Of a DNA stretch of 64,000 nt, positions 15,801-24,983 are shown one piece after another. This DNA is from Adineta ricciae (taxonomy: Eukaryota > Rotifera > Eurotatoria > Adinetida > Adinetidae): NCBI GenBank assembly GCA_905250025.1, contig CAJNOJ010000046.1:248001-312000 (forward strand), written 5' to 3'. Below the pieces are notes generated by a model. The model had not been told where the DNA came from. It saw nothing but the letters and a program-made list of their open reading frames with translations, and did no database searches. A program made the translations under genes and the position numbers. Every line of letters starts with the position of its first letter. Positions within the stretch are counted from its first letter, which is position 1.

Positions 15801-18800
15801 CTAACAGGAGAGATTCTTTGATAGAGACGATAAACGATCTTCAGTTAGAACAACACCTTTAGCTACGCATGTTCGATCGCGTCCATCGATTAAACAAGGC
15901 CAGATATATTCGATAATAGTTTCGCTTTCTTTATCCGATGTGTGAAAACGTTCGTGTAGTGATTTATCATATTTAGTTGTTTGAAATTCGATAGAATATG
16001 GAGGCGTTTGGTTAACTAAACCCCATCTGTAAGCAACAGAAAGACAGTTCTGACGAGAATTAAGTTTAGTTCAATACATACGCTGTTCGACAAGCCGCAT
16101 GAATGTATTTCAGCAATTCATGACAGGTTTTCAAACGCGGGTAATCGTACAGTGTATTCCACAGTTGATTTTCGACTTCCTAAAGCGAAAATACGAAGTT
16201 TTTTCGTGTAGCAGAGAAAAAGCTTTCGCTTACTGAGATAATCTTTCCGACATCATATTTTTGAATAGTTGTTCTTAGATATTTTTCAATTGTTTCTTCC
16301 AGGACAATCGAACCTTTATCATTGGATAGTTGAAGAAGTTGTTTGATTTTGTTTCGGACATCTTTCGCGTGATTTTGTGCATGACGAAAAGCAAGCTGGA
16401 AAGAGAATAAATAACTAATGAGTATTCCAATAGCTCAGCTTCACGTACGACAACAACAGAAAATAATAATTTCGATTTGAGATCGTCAGCACTGGACAAT
16501 TCACGAATACTATCCAAAGCATCGAGTGCATCGATTCGTAATTGGGAATATAGAGTATTGAACGATCGAATTAGTTCTGTTGGGCGAGAAATTTGATTAA
16601 GATCTTCAAATTTGCCACCTTTCTCTAATTGCCGTTGTGCTTGTTCAGCTAATCTAAATCAAACCCAAGAAAACACAGCACTACTTGGTTAAAGATCATC
16701 TCTATCATCTATTATCTTCGGCTACGTGTCATAATGATTGTTTTAGCCTTGTCCTAATCAGTTATATGCTCATCGGAATACTTAATTCTGCTTTTATTAC
16801 ATATATACAAAACTAAAAGGTCAACATAGAAGGGAAGAAGTCTTGTTTTCTGTCTTAGATATTCTAGATGTCGACTTATCCTGAGAAAACGATTGTTTTG
16901 ATTATATGTATATTTTCAATAATCGAATTAATCACATGTTTATTTCTCCATGTTTATTATTCCTGTGAATCTCATCTCCATGCTTTATACTTTATCGAAT
17001 CTTCAGGCTTCATTGGTTTTCTCAGTACATTGTTCTACTTTATCTTAAAAGAACTGAAGAAAACTTATGTGAACATCTATTTAATCTTATCAAATATCTA
17101 TTTTGTAAGTATGATGTGTATTATAATATATTGGCTGATTAGTTTAACAATTGAATCTCGTCGTTTCGTGGATGATTTTCACTTGCGTCAATGTCAACTA
17201 GTTGTTTCTTACTTTCTAATGTTAACTATTATTGGAAATTATCTGATATTCTTTATGTTGATCATGTACGCTCTCTGGTTTTGTTATTCTGATGTGAGAG
17301 AAAAGCAAGGTTTATATTCACATGCAACTTTAATTCATTGACTGTACCTTTCACGCATTTGTTCTTCACTTTTTTGTAAACGAGCGATGGTTTCTTTCGA
17401 CTTTTGTAATTCATTTTTCAATTGAAGTAAATCATTTTTCAATCGCTCTTTTTCTAAATGATCAGCAGTGAGAGATTCGGATGTTGGTACTGCCAGCGAT
17501 TGAACTGAAGGTGCTTTCGGTAATACTGTTGTTTGTTGTATAAATGAAGATGAAGGAGTTATGGGACTGTACGATAGTAGTCGAGAGTTTCCATTTTGAC
17601 CTAATGATTGCAGTGGAGCTGAAAAGAAAAATAGAGAAAAGTTCATTATAGGAATCGGAAGTGTTTACATACATTTCGATTTATCGAAATACATGCATGA
17701 TAACGCTGTCGACATGACAGTTGTTGCGCTTTTTCTTAGTTCACAAGATGTAAAAAGCAAATAGACGGACATCGCTTCTTTTTAATGTGTTACTACTGAT
17801 AGGAAACAATGGGAATAGTCGAGCTGTGTTAGCATTAATGCTCATGCAGAGATCGGTTGTATTATGAGAATATGTGTCTATTGTCAATCAAAGAGTCATT
17901 TACTATGAGAATCTGGCTATTCTGCTTTTCTTTTGTGGTTCCTTAATACGAGATATATTTCGGTTATCGATGAGGTCATTAACATCGGGAAAGAGATAGA
18001 ATGGCATGGACATTTGTCTCTAATTGTCGACCTTTTCGGGAAGTTATTCGAGAAAAGGACAACATTTGTTTAGAATGTATCAAGTGAGAGATTTGTTGAA
18101 GTTTACGCAAACGATAACTAGGCAGACAAAACAGACTGACTTTTCGATTGATTTGTTGAATAATATCAGCTGTTCTGTCTCATAATTTAGACAGTGAAAC
18201 ATTGTTTTTCTTTTCAACGTGCAATAATAATCTCTTACGCATTTGATCATTTCTTTCCGATTCATCTTCGTTATCATCGTCAAGAGAAGTGAAGTTTGTG
18301 GAAGTTTCACCCGTCGGTGTTGTTGTGAAGGCTTCGTGAGTCTTATCAGAGTATTGACGTCGACAAAGTAATGTTGGAGTCATTGATGTTTGAGGGAGAA
18401 TAACTGGTGTTTCTTCATACTGACTTAACGAATGGCAAGACTTCATGGTTACCGATCGTTTATTGTAGAATCTCTCTTTATTCTTTCGTAAAGATCGACG
18501 TATAGTATTGACAAACCCAGGCGATTTACTTTCTTTATTTGTATTCACTTCTGACATACCAATTGATTGAAACTGTTGTTCGTGATAAATCATATGAGTA
18601 TTTGTCGACACTAATGAGAGATTCAAATTGTTGATATTGGATGGAACGGATCGTGCTAGGTTGGGATTATTACAGAGAGATGATCGTTTCTCCGGAGAAT
18701 TGTTATCAACTTGTATGCAGATGCTTTTCTTCGGCCTAAGCGTAGCATTGGTCGAGATATGAAAGCTTTTCGTACGATTGAGATACTGTGCAGCTGTTGA

Positions 18801-21800
18801 CAGATATGTGTTAATAAGTTTACTAGTTGATTGTTGTTTTCGTATATGGTTCGTGCTCGGATGTGAAGGTGTTTGCGGATAAACGAAATGAAAATTAATG
18901 GCATCTGACATCGTGTTAATGAAATTTGGTTATTATTTGTACGACAACGAATGCGAGATGAAATCGGTGCCAAATATCGTAAGAGATCAGCACATGCGCA
19001 TGTATGTAGTAATGAGTGTTCAAAAGAAAGTGTATAAATGTGATCGGATAATCAAGTTCGATAGATGTATTACATTGTGGAGTGTAGAGGAAAAAAAACG
19101 TACGTCTCTTCGTGTATATATATATATACATGAAGAGAAGCCATCGCTTTCTTCTTTTTTTTCCCTATAAGGCGTCGGAACTACTTCTCTTTCTTTTCTC
19201 TTACAAAACATACAAGCGTGATATTATATTAATGGATGAGTGATAACTATAATCAAGCGCGCTTGGTACTATGTAGAGCTTTTCTAACGCTAACAGATGC
19301 ACTCACATCGAGTGATTACTTAATGCAAATAACAACGATGTTGTTTGTTCTTCTCCTCATCATGATGATAGAACAATGGTGTTCGCGGAAAAACTGTCAT
19401 AGATCATTGAGTTTTGATTAGGAATGTATCAAAATGATTTTCTGTTCACAAACATAATTGTTTACACGAAAAGAGTTGGAAGGAGAAAAGACGAACGTAT
19501 ACATCATCATTATTTTATGCTTCAATCGTTCTTTGTAATTTTCTATTGTTATTATGTACAATATGTTGAGGTAAACATCTCCGACTGAGCATAAGAATAA
19601 CTGTGAATCCAATCAACCGATGATATCCTGCTGTTACTCGCTATTATGTATGTAATCAGATAGAGAGAGAGAGAGAGAGAGAGGGAACGAACCTAACGAC
19701 TCTTTTATCTTTCGTCAATATGAACATAATTATAGTTTTTCTCTTGCAAGAGCAACAAGCAAACAGTTGTTGTAGAGCTAATTCAAGGTATTCGAAGACA
19801 TTATTTCAATATTTCAATTTGTAGACATCGATGCAAATAAAATACTTTAATAAATTACAACCTTTGCTTCGTATCAAGGAGACAAACACATATATACATA
19901 TATATCTTCGTCAATGCTAGCGCCTACATGTCAATGTCAAATCAGATCTTTCGCATACTTTCTGCTACTAGCTGTTCCTTAATTCTTATCCGATCTTTGG
20001 CACCACTGACAAATAACTGTATTCAAACTATGCGCTGAATGTGTTGAAAATTAGAGCATAATTATTAATTCGACAGGAATTTTCGCACATCTGACAGAGA
20101 GAAATAGTCAAACTTCTGTTAGTTCGGAGATAAATGGTCTTATCTTTCAAGGCTATCTTTACATTTGCTGAAAAAAGAAAACTCTATAGAAAATGACCAT
20201 CGGATTATTATTCTTTTGTTAGAAAGGCAAACAAAATAGACACATCTTTTCTGAACAGATTTATCAATGTGTAGAATAACATTTGTTGTATCCAGAAAAA
20301 TAGAACATTTCTCTTTGGCAAATGTTAACTCTTGATATACACAACTCCATTTTCATTTGCGCAGCGAAAGGAACGTTTCGAATTACGTCATTGTAATATT
20401 TAACGAAGTAAAGGACAATATCGATGCGTACTGTTTGTTTGAGTTAGTAATTTCAAATACAATTAATCGAGAACTTACTTGAATGTCCATTTCGTACTGC
20501 CATATCGTCTTTGTAGGGCGAAAGTTCATTTTCTAAAAACGAAAGAGCAGTTAATATGATGAGAACGAAGTTTTCGAATTGATGACTGTCTGTTTGTCTA
20601 TCGACGAGGGGACTTACCAATGTATGAGAGACGCTGACTTGGTAATCTGAATGATCTATTCGACATAGTATGAGACGATGGGGAAGGAAATTGAGGAGAC
20701 GAAGAGAACGAAGTAAAATATAATGTCAATCGATCTTCGTTCGTTCTGTGATTCATTTTCAACGAAAAAAGGATGAAGAAGAAACTCTAGCAATGTAGGT
20801 TAAATAATCCTCTGTGTTAATCGATGAGAATATTGAATTTGCGATTAAGGATATTAAGCATGGTACCATCGAGCATAGACATCGTTGGAGTAGTAGCTAG
20901 AAGATTTCTATTTGACGAAATTTGATCGTCGATCGTAAGAAAGACAAATAGAAGGTTGATGATGAGATATATCATCGTCATCATCATCATGTATCGATTA
21001 TGTTGTCGGAAGTAGTTTTCCTCCTACTCGCCTTCAATGATAACCAACTCAATATGAACGAACCGGCGACACAAATGGTTCCATATAAAAAATATGATGT
21101 CTATGTCGCATAAGGAGAGATAATGCGATGTTATTAATAACCTCGAAGGAATGGGCATGCGTGTCAACACGCCGTGAGGAAAACTGCTTCTATCTAATTT
21201 TTGTTATGTACGATTTTGGACTTATTCACGGATGAATTCAATCAACTACTGGATTTATTAGAAAATATTGTGCAGTGTCGAACAGAGCATGAGAAGAACG
21301 AGACGAGCAGTTAACGAACCGATTGGTATGTGACTTCTACTTACGATATCGTTGATGGTATGGTCGAAATTCTTCTAAAAACGAATAACGAGCATACCGA
21401 TTGCTATTATTATTGTTGTTGTTATTATAATTGGCATTGTCGTGCATAGTTGTCTTTTTCTGTCTAAGCATGATTGTCGTCATTTTGAGAATACATATAT
21501 GTATATACTTATACACGAAAGAAATGATGAGAAATCAACAATAATATCGTTTTGCCTCAAAGTTGTGACGCTGATGTGGCATATGGTATATGTGCAGAAG
21601 AAGGAGAATGATCATGAGTGAGATGTAGAAGAACGAGAAAAAGGAAGAAGGCAAATGTCTATATACAAAAGGTGCATACAACAAGCTACTTTCTCTCTCT
21701 TCTTACAGTGATTACATTGACGCATTCGAATGATCATGTTCTATTATATACTGCTTATTACTTTATCCTATTAATTAAACGTTTCCGTGGATCTTGGTTA

Positions 21801-23551
21801 ATAATTCGATAGCAATGAGATTGAAAATCAAAGCAATATGCAAATTAAACCATTTTCATCTTGCCATTTCACTCATAAAAACGATAAAACATAAAGTTTT
21901 ATATCCAGAAGAGTAGAACAACGAGAGACATCATCAAATTTTAGGCTCTGCTTTTTTTGCATCAAACTGTTTATATATACATTGACTTTTTTTTTCGACA
22001 TTTCTCTACTAGTGAAGACACACATACTTTTCAACTTACTAGTCGTAGTAACTGATGATTGACAAGGCATGGCAAGGATGAAAATCGTTTGGTTACTTCA
22101 TAGACTACTGTTGAATGATAAACATGTTACATACCAATGAATGAAAGGACTAATCGTGATTGTACTCCAGCCTTACACAAGCCGCAGCAGAAGAACAGAA
22201 GAAGGCAGAGAAACCTCGATACATATTCTCTTCTTCTGTGTTTTGTTTTCCTTTCTCATATGCACTATCAACATCCCATATCGATTAGAAGACATTAATT
22301 AGTACAATATTTGCTTTTATCATAATGAAAAATCATTTCCCTAATGAATAATCCTAACAGATTGATCTGGCTGAAATCAACTTACGAGATCGCGATCGTT
22401 TGAAACAAATTCCACCCGTACTACTGACACCTCGAACAGTTGTATCATCAATCACAATATCATCAGTACAGTCATCAATTAACGTACTGTCAGTTACTCG
22501 TCTCCATAATTGAATAATGCCTAGCGAAAAATGAATTTCAAATGAAGTCTGTCCGTGAAATGTTCTTACGTTCATAGGCGAAGGCGAAACGTTTAAATAA
22601 GGGTAGCAATGGTTCATTCAGAGGCATTTGCTTTTCGTGTATTTTGATATTTGAATATGCCAACAGAATTTGTTTATCTATGTATACTTTCTGATTGAGA
22701 TTATTGATAACTGAATAGAGTTTTGTGCGTGATAAATATGGTTCAATTTGATTCAAAATAGATTTATGTTGATAGAGACGAGCTTGAATATCATCTAACG
22801 AATTGATTGCTGGCGGCAATGGTACTCCTGAGGAAATTGCCGATGTCGATGAGTAAAGTGAAAGTTGTTTTCTTGATGTAACTGGTGTTGAATGAACCGA
22901 TAATGAAGGTGATGGCATTGTGATCGAGATACTCTTTGTTCCGAGTTTATGCAATGCCTGTTGACAACAAGTAATTGTTGTTTCTAATTCGTGCCGAAGA
23001 GTATCTTCGAGATTTAAATGTGTAAGTGATACGGATCGTGATAGCGTCGAGGTACTAGTGGCTGTGGAATGACGTTGTTCGAAATACGATATACATTCAT
23101 CAAGTGTTTGTTTCTGACGAAGAAGACGTTTGAATAAGATCGGTTGAACATAAGAGAGAATCCGAAGGATGCTGCCGAGATTGCTCGACAAGCGTTCGTT
23201 TTCGATGGAGCATTCTTTGAATTTGGCTTGAATTGATGATGCGGAAGGAGATGTTGCTGCAAAGATACTAATCATTTTCGATAATAATTGTTCAGGTTTA
23301 AATATTCGAAGAGGAAATGTATCCGGATCGATGACAAACATTTTCGAATAGATTACTTCAAAGATTTCGATTGAAAATGGTAATTGAGCAAATAAGGTGT
23401 CGAATGATAAATCTGTGGTGACAATCTTACGGAATGTATTCGCATTTAGACGATTGATATAAACTGCGCAGTCATCATAGTTATGTGTTCGAAGATAATG
23501 GGCAATACGAGCTAAGACAACGTCGATCGGGATATTACGATTACTAGCCAT
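15801..23551 (-). CDS. SPATA18: MIEAP/SPATA18-family mitochondrial quality-control protein
   Basis: Homologue of the mitochondria-eating protein, which in vertebrates acts in degradation or repair of damaged mitochondria. Common exons (minus): 20479-20532, 17348-17618, 16449-16653, 16234-16395, 16082-16179, 15801-16026. Seen: a coiled coil (HLEKERLKNDLLQLKNELQK), a helical segment with the family's LAFRHAQ, then the MIEAP carboxyl domain (WGLVNQTPPYSIEF, EYIWPCLIDGRDRTCVAKG). The longest isoform adds 22570-23551 and 22386-22520 (710 aa, frame closes), giving a helical amino-terminal region not recognised. Four other candidate 5' exons (listed separately) also join in phase 1, predicting isoforms of about 348, 354, 384 and 544 aa. 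Introns are long for this genome: 20533 to 22385, 17619-20478 (2.9 kb), and 16654-17347 with a nested ORF. Identity is strong for the carboxyl half, weaker for the 5' structure. Confidence 0.85.
16868..17341 (+). CDS. Small four-helix membrane protein nested in MIEAP intron
   Basis: Intronless ORF of 157 aa, opposite in strand to the host gene, ending six bases before the next MIEAP exon. Four hydrophobic segments are visible at about residues 8-30, 43-62, 72-93 and 110-140, with a short polar tail. No family recognised; it has the tetraspan shape of small uncharacterised bdelloid membrane proteins. High AT content can produce such frames by chance, so expression needs support. Confidence 0.45.
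   Translation: MSTYPEKTIVLIICIFSIIELITCLFLHVYYSCESHLHALYFIESSGFIGFLSTLFYFILKELKKTYVNIYLILSNIYFVSMMCIIIYWLISLTIESRRFVDDFHLRQCQLVVSYFLMLTIIGNYLIFFMLIMYALWFCYSDVREKQGLYSHATLIH
18180..18911 (-). CDS. MIEAP gene: candidate first exon (isoform S) or stand-alone ORF
   Basis: The open frame runs from ATG 18911 to a stop at 18180 (243 aa), inside the 2.9-kb MIEAP intron on the same strand. A good donor (ATGC|GTAAGAG) at 18239 would leave phase 1 and join the exon at 17618 in frame, giving a 544-aa MIEAP isoform. The encoded 224 residues are Ser/Thr/Asn-rich with a basic cluster (RRSLRKNKERFYNKR) and look disordered; no domain recognised. If unspliced it would be a separate small protein. Confidence 0.55.
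   Translation of the reverse strand: MSDAINFHFVYPQTPSHPSTNHIRKQQSTSKLINTYLSTAAQYLNRTKSFHISTNATLRPKKSICIQVDNNSPEKRSSLCNNPNLARSVPSNINNLNLSLVSTNTHMIYHEQQFQSIGMSEVNTNKESKSPGFVNTIRRSLRKNKERFYNKRSVTMKSCHSLSQYEETPVILPQTSMTPTLLCRRQYSDKTHEAFTTTPTGETSTNFTSLDDDNEDESERNDQMRKRLLLHVEKKNNVSLSKL
19662..19684. repeat. (AG)n microsatellite
   Basis: About 23 bases of uninterrupted AG dinucleotide within the long MIEAP intron. Confidence 0.95.
20618..20666 (-). other. MIEAP gene: candidate first exon (isoform B)
   Basis: Encodes MSNRSFRLPSQRLSYI and ends with a GTAAGT donor in phase 1, only 85 bases before the common exon at 20532. It cannot be an in-phase internal exon, so it should be a true alternative start. 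Confidence 0.5.
21345..21483 (-). other. MIEAP gene: candidate first exon (isoform A)
   Basis: ATG at 21483, 46 codons with an Asn run (about eight in a row) and ending FLEEFRPYHQRY, then a GTAAGT donor in phase 1. A TTTTTAG within it would alternatively define a 30-nt in-phase cassette exon (21345-21374). Confidence 0.45.
22040..22070 (-). other. MIEAP gene: candidate 31-nt first exon (isoform C)
   Basis: ATG followed by ten codons (MPCQSSVTTT) and a strong GTAAGT donor in phase 1. An internal AG would instead make a 12-nt in-phase cassette microexon (22040-22051) between unit D and the common exons. Both fit the frame. Confidence 0.4.
22386..23551 (-). CDS. MIEAP gene: long 5' coding unit (isoform D)
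   Basis: Exons 22570-23551 and 22386-22520 (intron 49 bp). It starts MASNRNIPIDVVLARIAHYL and encodes about 370 mostly helical residues with a Ser/Thr-rich linker in the middle, ending CFKRSRS. The donor (CTC|GTAAG) leaves phase 1, matching the acceptor at 20532. The domain is not recognised. It could be a separate gene only if a terminal exon exists elsewhere; the open donor argues against that. An acceptor-like AG (23555-23556) lies three bases before the ATG. Confidence 0.7.
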
Positions 23552-24983
23552 TTTCTAATTGTAGATGCACTACTAAATCAAGTAGAAATATCGCTGCTTG
23601 TATTAGTTCTTGTTTGTTATTCTATTGTTATTGCGAGACGTACTATCATGGTAAACTTGCTTAGATTGATGAGAAGACAACATTTAGGTTGTTAGTACGT
23701 AGTAGTGGTGTTCCTCGATTCTCCACGTTGTGTTTCTATCACCTTCGAATGGAAAGAGTAGTACGAACAAGACGAGAGGAGATATTTTGTTCGGGTTTCT
23801 TTCTGCTGCTTTCTCTCTTCGTACTTTGATTTTTGACGTCAATGATGGTACCGATCTATTATCTATCTATTGCCACATATACGTATATGTGTATAAGGCG
23901 ATTCTCTGGTTAAAAGAAATAACGTTTATGATTATATGCATACACACACAATCTTCCCCTTCCTGTCGTAGTATTGACTTATTGATAACGACAATTGTCT
24001 TGCTACAGATAAAACTTGACGCACAGTTGCCCTTCATCAGCTCTCGACACATGAATCGAATTAAACATAATCTTACATGATGAGAATAACAAAAAATTAG
24101 GTTTTGACGTACTACAAACAGATGATTTCCTACCTATGATGAGATCATATGAATAACGATGCGGTTCCTTTAAGTACTTCCTCTCTTACTTTCGACATAG
24201 GTTATTTGATACGAGTGAATGCCAGCGACTATATGACATATTTTCATATCAGGAAGGTTAGCCTTTGTTATCTTTTCTAAGTTGAAATCGAAGACTCTTT
24301 TTCAATGTGAGATTATGACAAAATCGATGTCAGTCGATATTTAACTACACTCAATAAGAGACAAATGGGCAGTACGAATTCTATTATACAACAGAAACCT
24401 TGCTCAGACATGATTATATGCAAATCATTCGACTACTCTCAGTCAACTGTCTTCCTTCGTAAAAAATACGATTAGACATAAGTTTTATTAGACGATGATA
24501 GAATACTGCCGTCGATATCATTAATCTTCTACGACAGAACAAACAAATTCAATTAATTTTGACGGTAATTAATAAGAGGATATGACAAATTCTTCGATAT
24601 ACTTGAGCAAGTCGTCTCAAGAAATGTATTACATGCTCAATCATTTTCCTATTTGTGCTGAACATCTGTTGCATTGTACAACACACATTCTCGGTTATCC
24701 CGTAGTTTTACTGCAAGCACATAGCGGGATGCAGTAGACAATTCGAAGCATTTCTTAGGATTCCAAAATCAATATGTTTGTAAGGCAATAAACAAATTCG
24801 AGAATCATTTGTTTGGATGTAATTAAATCGAAGTCCTTTCGTAGAATAGTTCTGTTTTTCTGTCGGTAATCAATGCAAAAAAGCATATCCTTTCTAAATA
24901 ATCAAAACCACGCCTATCGAATTCAATTTGAATTAGTAGCAGTGTTTGATCTATATATCATTCATTTCTAACAAGAACATAAT
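23552..24983. other. Intergenic between divergent genes
   Basis: Shared 5' region of the MIEAP gene (minus) and the membrane protein at 24984 (plus). No coding exon was identified; short open frames are not supported. Confidence 0.5.

Follow-up and report, generated by a model that had tools for sequence, protein, structure and literature searches.

The stretch analysed here (the window) comprises 64,000 nt of the 130-Mb Adineta ricciae assembly, positions 248001-312000 of contig CAJNOJ010000046.1 (C46), and its minus strand holds a MIEAP/SPATA18 gene at 15801-23551 (Pfam PF16026, E 8e-55). This identification, already made in an initial annotation from the letters of the sequence, was borne out: residues 504-697 of the 710-aa product align with the whole PF16026 profile (1-195 of 195) at 186 bits, against a curated cut-off of 27. 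As in MIEAP/SPATA18 of other animals, the C-terminal MIEAP domain follows a coiled-coil-like stretch, and the accessible text on the human Mieap protein likewise mentions coiled coils (PMC10845071). The domain is encoded by a set of shared exons, upstream of which lie several ATG-bearing units, numbered 1-6 here, that could supply the N-terminus. The model of the shared exons is a prediction from conservation between the window and a second copy of the gene on contig C97; E2-E7 each have an AG acceptor in both copies, and E2-E6 also a GT donor in both.

E2, 20479-20532, minus strand: 54-nt in-phase exon in both copies, the predicted first acceptor for units 1, 3 and 4
E3, 17348-17618, minus strand: shared exon, linker and likely coiled coil, conserved in C97
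E4, 16449-16653, minus strand: shared exon, MIEAP domain, conserved in C97 and matched by Pfam
E5, 16234-16395, minus strand: shared exon, MIEAP domain, conserved in C97 and matched by Pfam
E6, 16082-16179, minus strand: shared exon, MIEAP domain, conserved in C97 and matched by Pfam
E7, 15801-16026, minus strand: last shared exon, carrying the stop, conserved in C97 and matched by Pfam

MIEAP exons were detected at four sites in the genome, on C46 (the window), C97, C273 and C195. A DNA search with 15801-24400 returned, own contig aside, a single collinear region, C97:168349-176238, matched in eight segments that are 67-88% identical, with matches to C97 running past the gene on both sides (C97:163600-166409 and C97:183074-183516). 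Window and C97 homoeolog are separated by a dS of 0.8-2.1, and the C97 copy (L019) was used as an independent test of the proposed units, as a single comparison copy from the same genome. A global MAFFT alignment placed unit 6 and E3 wrongly because the introns are unequal, and anchored alignments were used instead. The genes on C273 (~107331) and C195 (~1302-2039) form a second, diverged MIEAP pair without clear relatives of the upstream units: among matches at E 0.1 or better the unit peptides reached 0.015 at best and the MIEAP exons 2e-4, with the C195 gene lying at a contig end, which leaves the pair neutral towards the units.

The Upstream Units

The initial annotation had proposed at least five alternative 5' exons, here units 1-5, with donors that each leave one base of a codon, and all five donors lie where it had placed them. 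In outline the proposal holds. Units 1, 3, 4 and 5 are kept in C97, each with a GTAAG donor; unit 2 has no counterpart there, a sixth unit had been missed and the start of unit 4 was probably misplaced. The units are as follows, with lengths and predicted proteins for the window and then for C97.

Unit 1, first part, 22570-23551, minus strand: putative first exon with ATG at 23551; 982 and 991 nt; 67% DNA identity to C97, phase 1; predicted proteins of 710 and 728 aa, 372 residues from the unit
Unit 1, second part, 22386-22520, minus strand: donor GTAAGT leaving one base; 135 and 126 nt; intron at the same place in C97, donor 6/6 identical
Unit 2, 22040-22070, minus strand: unsupported as a unit; 31 nt, none in C97, which lacks both the ATG and a GT donor at the corresponding position; predicted protein of 348 aa in the window copy only
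Unit 3, 21345-21483, minus strand: putative first exon (46 aa), with its last 30 nt alone as an alternative cassette exon; 139 and 118 nt; ATG, frame, donor and phase conserved; predicted proteins of 384 and 395 aa
Possible in-phase 30-nt microexon within unit 3, 21345-21374, minus strand: acceptor scores of 9.4 (window) and 9.9 (C97)
Unit 4, 20618-20756, minus strand: putative first exon (46 aa), start shifted to 20756; 139 and 124 nt; MNHRTNEDRLTLYFT / MSQSTNTDRLTLYFT conserved, phase 1, donor GTAAGT 6/6; predicted proteins of 384 and 397 aa
Unit 5, 18239-18911, minus strand: putative first exon (224 aa); 673 and 622 nt; donor GTAAGA 6/6 despite a diverged exon end; predicted proteins of 544 and 545 aa
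Unit 6, 17673-17715, minus strand: putative short first exon, MSTALSCMY[F/C]DK[S/T]K (14 residues), new in this analysis; 43 nt in both copies, donor GTATGT; 12/14 aa and 37/43 bases identical, phase 1 in both copies; predicted proteins of 334 and 352 aa

Four of the five protein lengths given previously (348, 384, 544 and 710 aa) were reproduced. Unit 1 requires a 49-nt intron (22569-22521), which must have been allowed for in the earlier prediction because its 710 aa is correct. The fifth length, 354 aa, corresponds to a start of unit 4 at ATG 20666, but an in-frame ATG at 20756, 90 nt upstream of it, is conserved, and the two copies have similar peptides in between. The start is therefore probably 20756, which gives 384 aa. 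Unit 2 was dropped from the array, with no aligned ATG or GT donor in C97 and its own donor in none of the pairs of the loosened scan described below.

In difference from MIEAP/SPATA18 of other animals, the parts from units 1 and 5 match no Pfam family over cut-off, unit 1 having no match even near it, and in the genome their matches at E 0.001 or better fall only in the two MIEAP copies. A search of unit 1 against solved structures gave none for the unit and one match, at E 0.06, in the MIEAP part; its first part is predicted to be helical, with a mean pLDDT of 43 in a single-sequence AlphaFold2 model, a confidence too poor for a fold search. The first 40 residues of unit 1 have a LisH-like look that was not borne out, no LisH family appearing among the matches listed up to an E of 10. 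Simple values of net charge and hydrophobic moment, calculated for the units, identify no targeting signal.

Conservation and Splice Phase

Five units (1, 3, 4, 5 and 6) retain their ATG, open frame, donor and phase in C97, leaving one base at the donor in both copies (phase 1). Six coding exons differ in length between the copies, by +9, -9, -21, -15, -51 and +54, all multiples of 3. At a dS of 0.84-1.70 across the five units, pN/pS was 0.31 for unit 1 (355 codons), 0.50 for unit 3 (39), 0.61 for unit 4 (41), 0.48 for unit 5 (197) and 0.11 for unit 6 (14), next to 0.31 for E2 (17), 0.31 for E3 (85) and 0.19 for E4-E7 (230). One-sided Fisher tests for an excess of pS over pN gave uncorrected p values of 7e-36, 0.023, 0.035, 2e-12 and 0.008 for units 1, 3, 4, 5 and 6, and of 0.002, 2e-11 and 2e-42 for E2, E3 and E4-E7; with eight groups tested, the coding signal of units 3 and 4 (0.023 and 0.035, uncorrected) is modest.

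The boundaries of the units are also visible in the alignment. Identity falls at the ATG in all five, with 14-18 of 21 bases identical after it against 5-13 of 21 before it. The donor hexamer is identical at 6/6 positions in units 1, 3, 4 and 5 and at 4/6 in unit 6, while beyond the donor 5-8 of 21 bases agree. In units 1, 3 and 6 identity drops past the hexamer, and in units 4 and 5 the hexamer is fully identical though only 7/21 and 8/21 of the last exon bases are.

We then scanned both strands for aligned ATG-to-donor open frames present in the two copies, sorted by phase. A strict scan took frames of at least 36 nt, which leaves out unit 2, and had the named units among its anchors. In the sense phase 1 class 9 of 11 pairs passed, all of them units 1, 3, 4, 5 and 6 and their sub-frames; elsewhere the counts were 0/1 for phase 0, 1/5 for phase 2 (a sub-frame of unit 3) and 0/2 for antisense. 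A loosened scan went down to 18 nt and a lower donor score, and for its second run the anchors were cut back to unit 1's first part plus the shared exons. Its two runs gave 17/31 and 17/35 in sense phase 1, from six window ATGs (the five units and an ATG internal to E2), with 1/6 and 1/9 in phase 0, 1/23 and 1/26 in phase 2, and 1/19 and 1/25 antisense; the phase 0 pair and the antisense pair (phase 2) lie inside the coding exon of unit 1, and in sense phase 2 the sub-frame of unit 3 came up once more. The ATG in E2 is a conserved in-frame one at 20503 (minus strand; MAV[R/K]NG[H/R]S) and could initiate an even shorter form.

Neither scan, strict or loosened, yielded a further ATG-to-donor unit, and tblastx of the masked gaps between units gave stop-broken or short open matches, none longer than ~45 residues. 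In the scans, therefore, the distinct conserved units number five, and all five have the only phase compatible with E2 and E3. That the units are more than chance is supported by the frame-keeping length changes, the synonymous excess in five units and the restriction of distinct scan units to phase 1. Conservation in the homoeolog is far stronger support for the predicted array than the phase argument. Considered as sequence, five units in two copies have what defines a gene with variable first exons, namely at least two ATG-bearing exons whose donors are all in phase with the shared exons.

First Exons or Internal Exons

In-frame stops occur upstream of each ATG, within 1-22 codons in the window and 11-43 codons in C97. 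Acceptors were scored with a weight matrix trained on those of seven predicted exons, 14 acceptors in all over both copies, whose own scores are 8.1-13.2. In units 1, 4, 5 and 6 no in-phase acceptor scoring 7 or more that could make them internal exons is common to both copies. The coding sequence of unit 1 has in-phase acceptors that are unshared, one in the window (+295, score 8.4) and one in C97 (+229, score 7.2). At +10 of unit 6 both copies have a weak in-phase AG, with scores of 3.6 and 4.5 that are below all 14 reference acceptors.

Both copies of unit 3 carry a strong in-phase acceptor (9.4 and 9.9) at 30 nt upstream of the donor, so the unit could serve as a first exon, as a 30-nt cassette or in both ways. 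The initial annotation had allowed for cassettes of 30 nt in unit 3 and of 12 nt in unit 2; the former stands on this acceptor, and the latter fell with the donor of unit 2, which is not conserved. That unit 3 acts only as a 30-nt microexon (21374-21345) inside longer unit 1 transcripts is a live possibility, if a somewhat doubtful one. The acceptor, TTTTTAG in the window and CTTTTAG in C97, sits exactly 30 nt from the donor in both copies and scores within the reference range; only 2.9% of 1017 AGs reach 8 or more. Several features speak against it. The ATG and an MTT..LR.KK start are conserved, with 17 of 21 bases identical after the ATG against 9 before it, the 21-nt length difference, a multiple of 3, falls ahead of the acceptor, and substitutions there lean synonymous (pS 0.46, pN 0.24, p 0.06). 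A conserved block also lies 138 nt upstream of the unit. Both uses of unit 3, as first exon and as cassette, may occur. Coding first exons would number at least four (units 1, 4, 5 and 6) and, with unit 3, most likely five.

One Gene, Probably with Several Starts

The layout is best read as a single MIEAP gene whose alternative first exons, set in an array, are spliced to shared MIEAP exons, a reading to which we assign a probability of about 0.8. An improbable alternative is that two or more genes are present, with unit 1 (perhaps also unit 5) independent and ending soon past its donor, and only the remainder being MIEAP. Reading through past the donor of unit 1 does reach a stop after 10 codons in both copies, and past that of unit 5 after 19 and 3 codons in the two copies. 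These read-through bases, however, are only 8/21 (unit 1) and 6/21 (unit 5) identical beyond donor hexamers that are 6/6, neither unit 1 nor unit 5 is followed by a listed AATAAA/ATTAAA at corresponding positions of the two copies, and each unit has the phase that fits the MIEAP exons. That unit 1 and unit 5 have genome matches (E 0.001 or better) nowhere but in these two MIEAP copies also argues against independent genes.

The gaps upstream of the units were compared by local alignment with exons masked, against 30 shuffles approximately keeping dinucleotides whose best score was 20. Seven collinear non-coding blocks score 23-71 and are located in the gaps before units 1, 3, 4, 5 and 6, the nearest lying 138-273 nt upstream of the ATG in each of the five units; the gap before unit 5 is large, and any block in it counts as upstream of that unit by position.

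Block before unit 1, 23812-24061, minus strand: putative promoter; 250 columns, 67% identity, score 71; 261 nt from ATG
Marginal collinear block, 22102-22162, minus strand: upstream of unit 2 by 32 nt and of unit 3 by 619 nt; 70% identity, score 21 (best shuffle 20)
Block before unit 3, 21621-21697, minus strand: putative promoter; 75% identity, score 27; 138 nt from ATG
Block before unit 4, 20984-21025, minus strand: putative promoter; 81% identity, score 26; 228 nt from ATG
Farther block before unit 5, 19886-19940, minus strand: 71% identity, score 23; 975 nt from ATG
Middle block before unit 5, 19505-19615, minus strand: 72% identity, score 44; 594 nt from ATG
Nearest block before unit 5, 19184-19256, minus strand: putative promoter; 77% identity, score 36; 273 nt from ATG
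Block before unit 6, 17865-17951, minus strand: putative promoter; 71% identity, score 33; 150 nt from ATG

The blocks are not confined to the five units, since the eighth (22162-22102) stands just before the unsupported unit 2. It might be a promoter, or belong to a unit that the other copy has lost, and with this weakly conserved stretch just before it unit 2 is possible as a unit of the window copy alone. The sole further score of 21 belongs to a simple repeat that is not collinear, and no block of 17 or more falls within the intron that follows E3. Directly before the ATGs, gapped global alignment of 60 bases gave identities of 0.57, 0.53, 0.53, 0.42 and 0.68 (units 1, 3, 4, 5 and 6) against a shuffled mean of 0.52, with no signal over shuffles except perhaps in unit 6. 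We infer that the upstream blocks are the best candidates for separate promoters, and they could instead be enhancers or splicing elements.

The 5' ends might also arise from spliced-leader trans-splicing or an operon instead of separate promoters, which we consider distinctly improbable. A rotifer spliced-leader 23-mer has 44 matches in the genome at one or two mismatches, its reversed control having 0, as fits a bdelloid. In C97, acceptor-like sites precede unit 1 by 10 nt (score 9.3), unit 5 by 13 nt (7.5) and unit 6 by 134 nt (8.6). These sites are not shared, however: within 400 nt upstream of the ATGs, no site of 7 or more has a counterpart at the corresponding position of the other copy, and neither copy has one ahead of units 3 and 4. 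Addition of a leader to some units would, moreover, leave the exon array unchanged. The 23-mers themselves are frequently arranged as inverted pairs at a spacing of ~150 bases, concentrated on a few contigs (C6 and C8 among others). That the units are chance open frames with chance donors is scarcely credible overall and very unlikely for units 1, 5 and 6; short open frames followed by GT are common, and chance probably does account for unit 2, but it would have to explain five units conserved at a dS of ~1 with frame-keeping length changes and a single phase.

Relation to Known Systems and a Possible Role

The predicted architecture puts the gene among those with multiple variable first exons. 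In clusters of the UGT1, GCNT2 and protocadherin type, the first exons are related to one another. The rotifer units differ from those of UGT1 and the protocadherins in that they are not duplicates: when units 1, 3, 4, 5 and 6 were set against one another (20 pairings, 200 shuffles), no pair was clearly more alike than shuffled sequence, none falling below 11%, and tandem duplication is not what they display. The clusters share with the predicted rotifer gene a layout of tandem variable first exons joined to common exons; in UGT1, each variable first exon has a promoter of its own ahead of it, according to the available text of the sources (PMC1885805, PMC3325998). The closest resemblance is to plectin (PLEC), where first exons also give isoforms different N-termini. 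The accessible part of a plectin study describes about a dozen alternative first exons, with differing short N-termini, joined to a shared exon 2, and a 37-residue first-exon sequence in isoform P1b that carries a mitochondrial targeting signal (PMC8468861). Plectin is a different protein, and the rotifer N-termini range from 14 to 372 residues; the rotifer array was predicted from genome sequence alone and then checked against a second copy that the genome itself provides. Among the papers listed from a largely open-access literature, we found no alternative first exons in a MIEAP gene, nor such an array in a rotifer.

Under the preferred reading of a single gene, unrelated coding first exons would stand in tandem in the 5' half, each with its own start codon and phase 1 donor, and a transcript would start at one unit and splice over the remaining units to the shared exons. 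Units 1, 3 and 4 would join E2 and then E3, and units 5 and 6 would join E3 directly; E2 could also be skipped with phase kept. All products would share the linker with its likely coiled coil and the C-terminal MIEAP domain, several N-terminal forms of MIEAP thus being indicated. Each block may be a promoter, with the unit probably chosen by promoter rather than by splicing, and the differing N-termini may place or regulate the MIEAP domain differently. The layout of five start exons, kept in an ancient second copy, is probably real and used. Whether it amounts to a plectin-like address system for mitochondrial quality control, with five unrelated first exons that evolved before the bdelloid genome duplication, were kept in both homoeologs and direct or regulate the MIEAP domain by cell type or compartment, is a tentative suggestion that we regard as doubtful.

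A search of homoeolog against homoeolog for aligned one-phase ATG-to-donor units could list hidden first exons across bdelloid genomes. Against introns that average 104-108 bases in two Adineta species, as given in the accessible text of one study (PMC5916493), a multi-kilobase 5' region with embedded exons stands out. Further down the gene, the intron after E3, whose C97 counterpart is only 240 nt, holds on the plus strand (16868-17341) an antisense ORF of 157 aa rich in hydrophobic segments; a genome search gave it no other match at E 0.001 or better, and it may be an orphan nested gene or chance.
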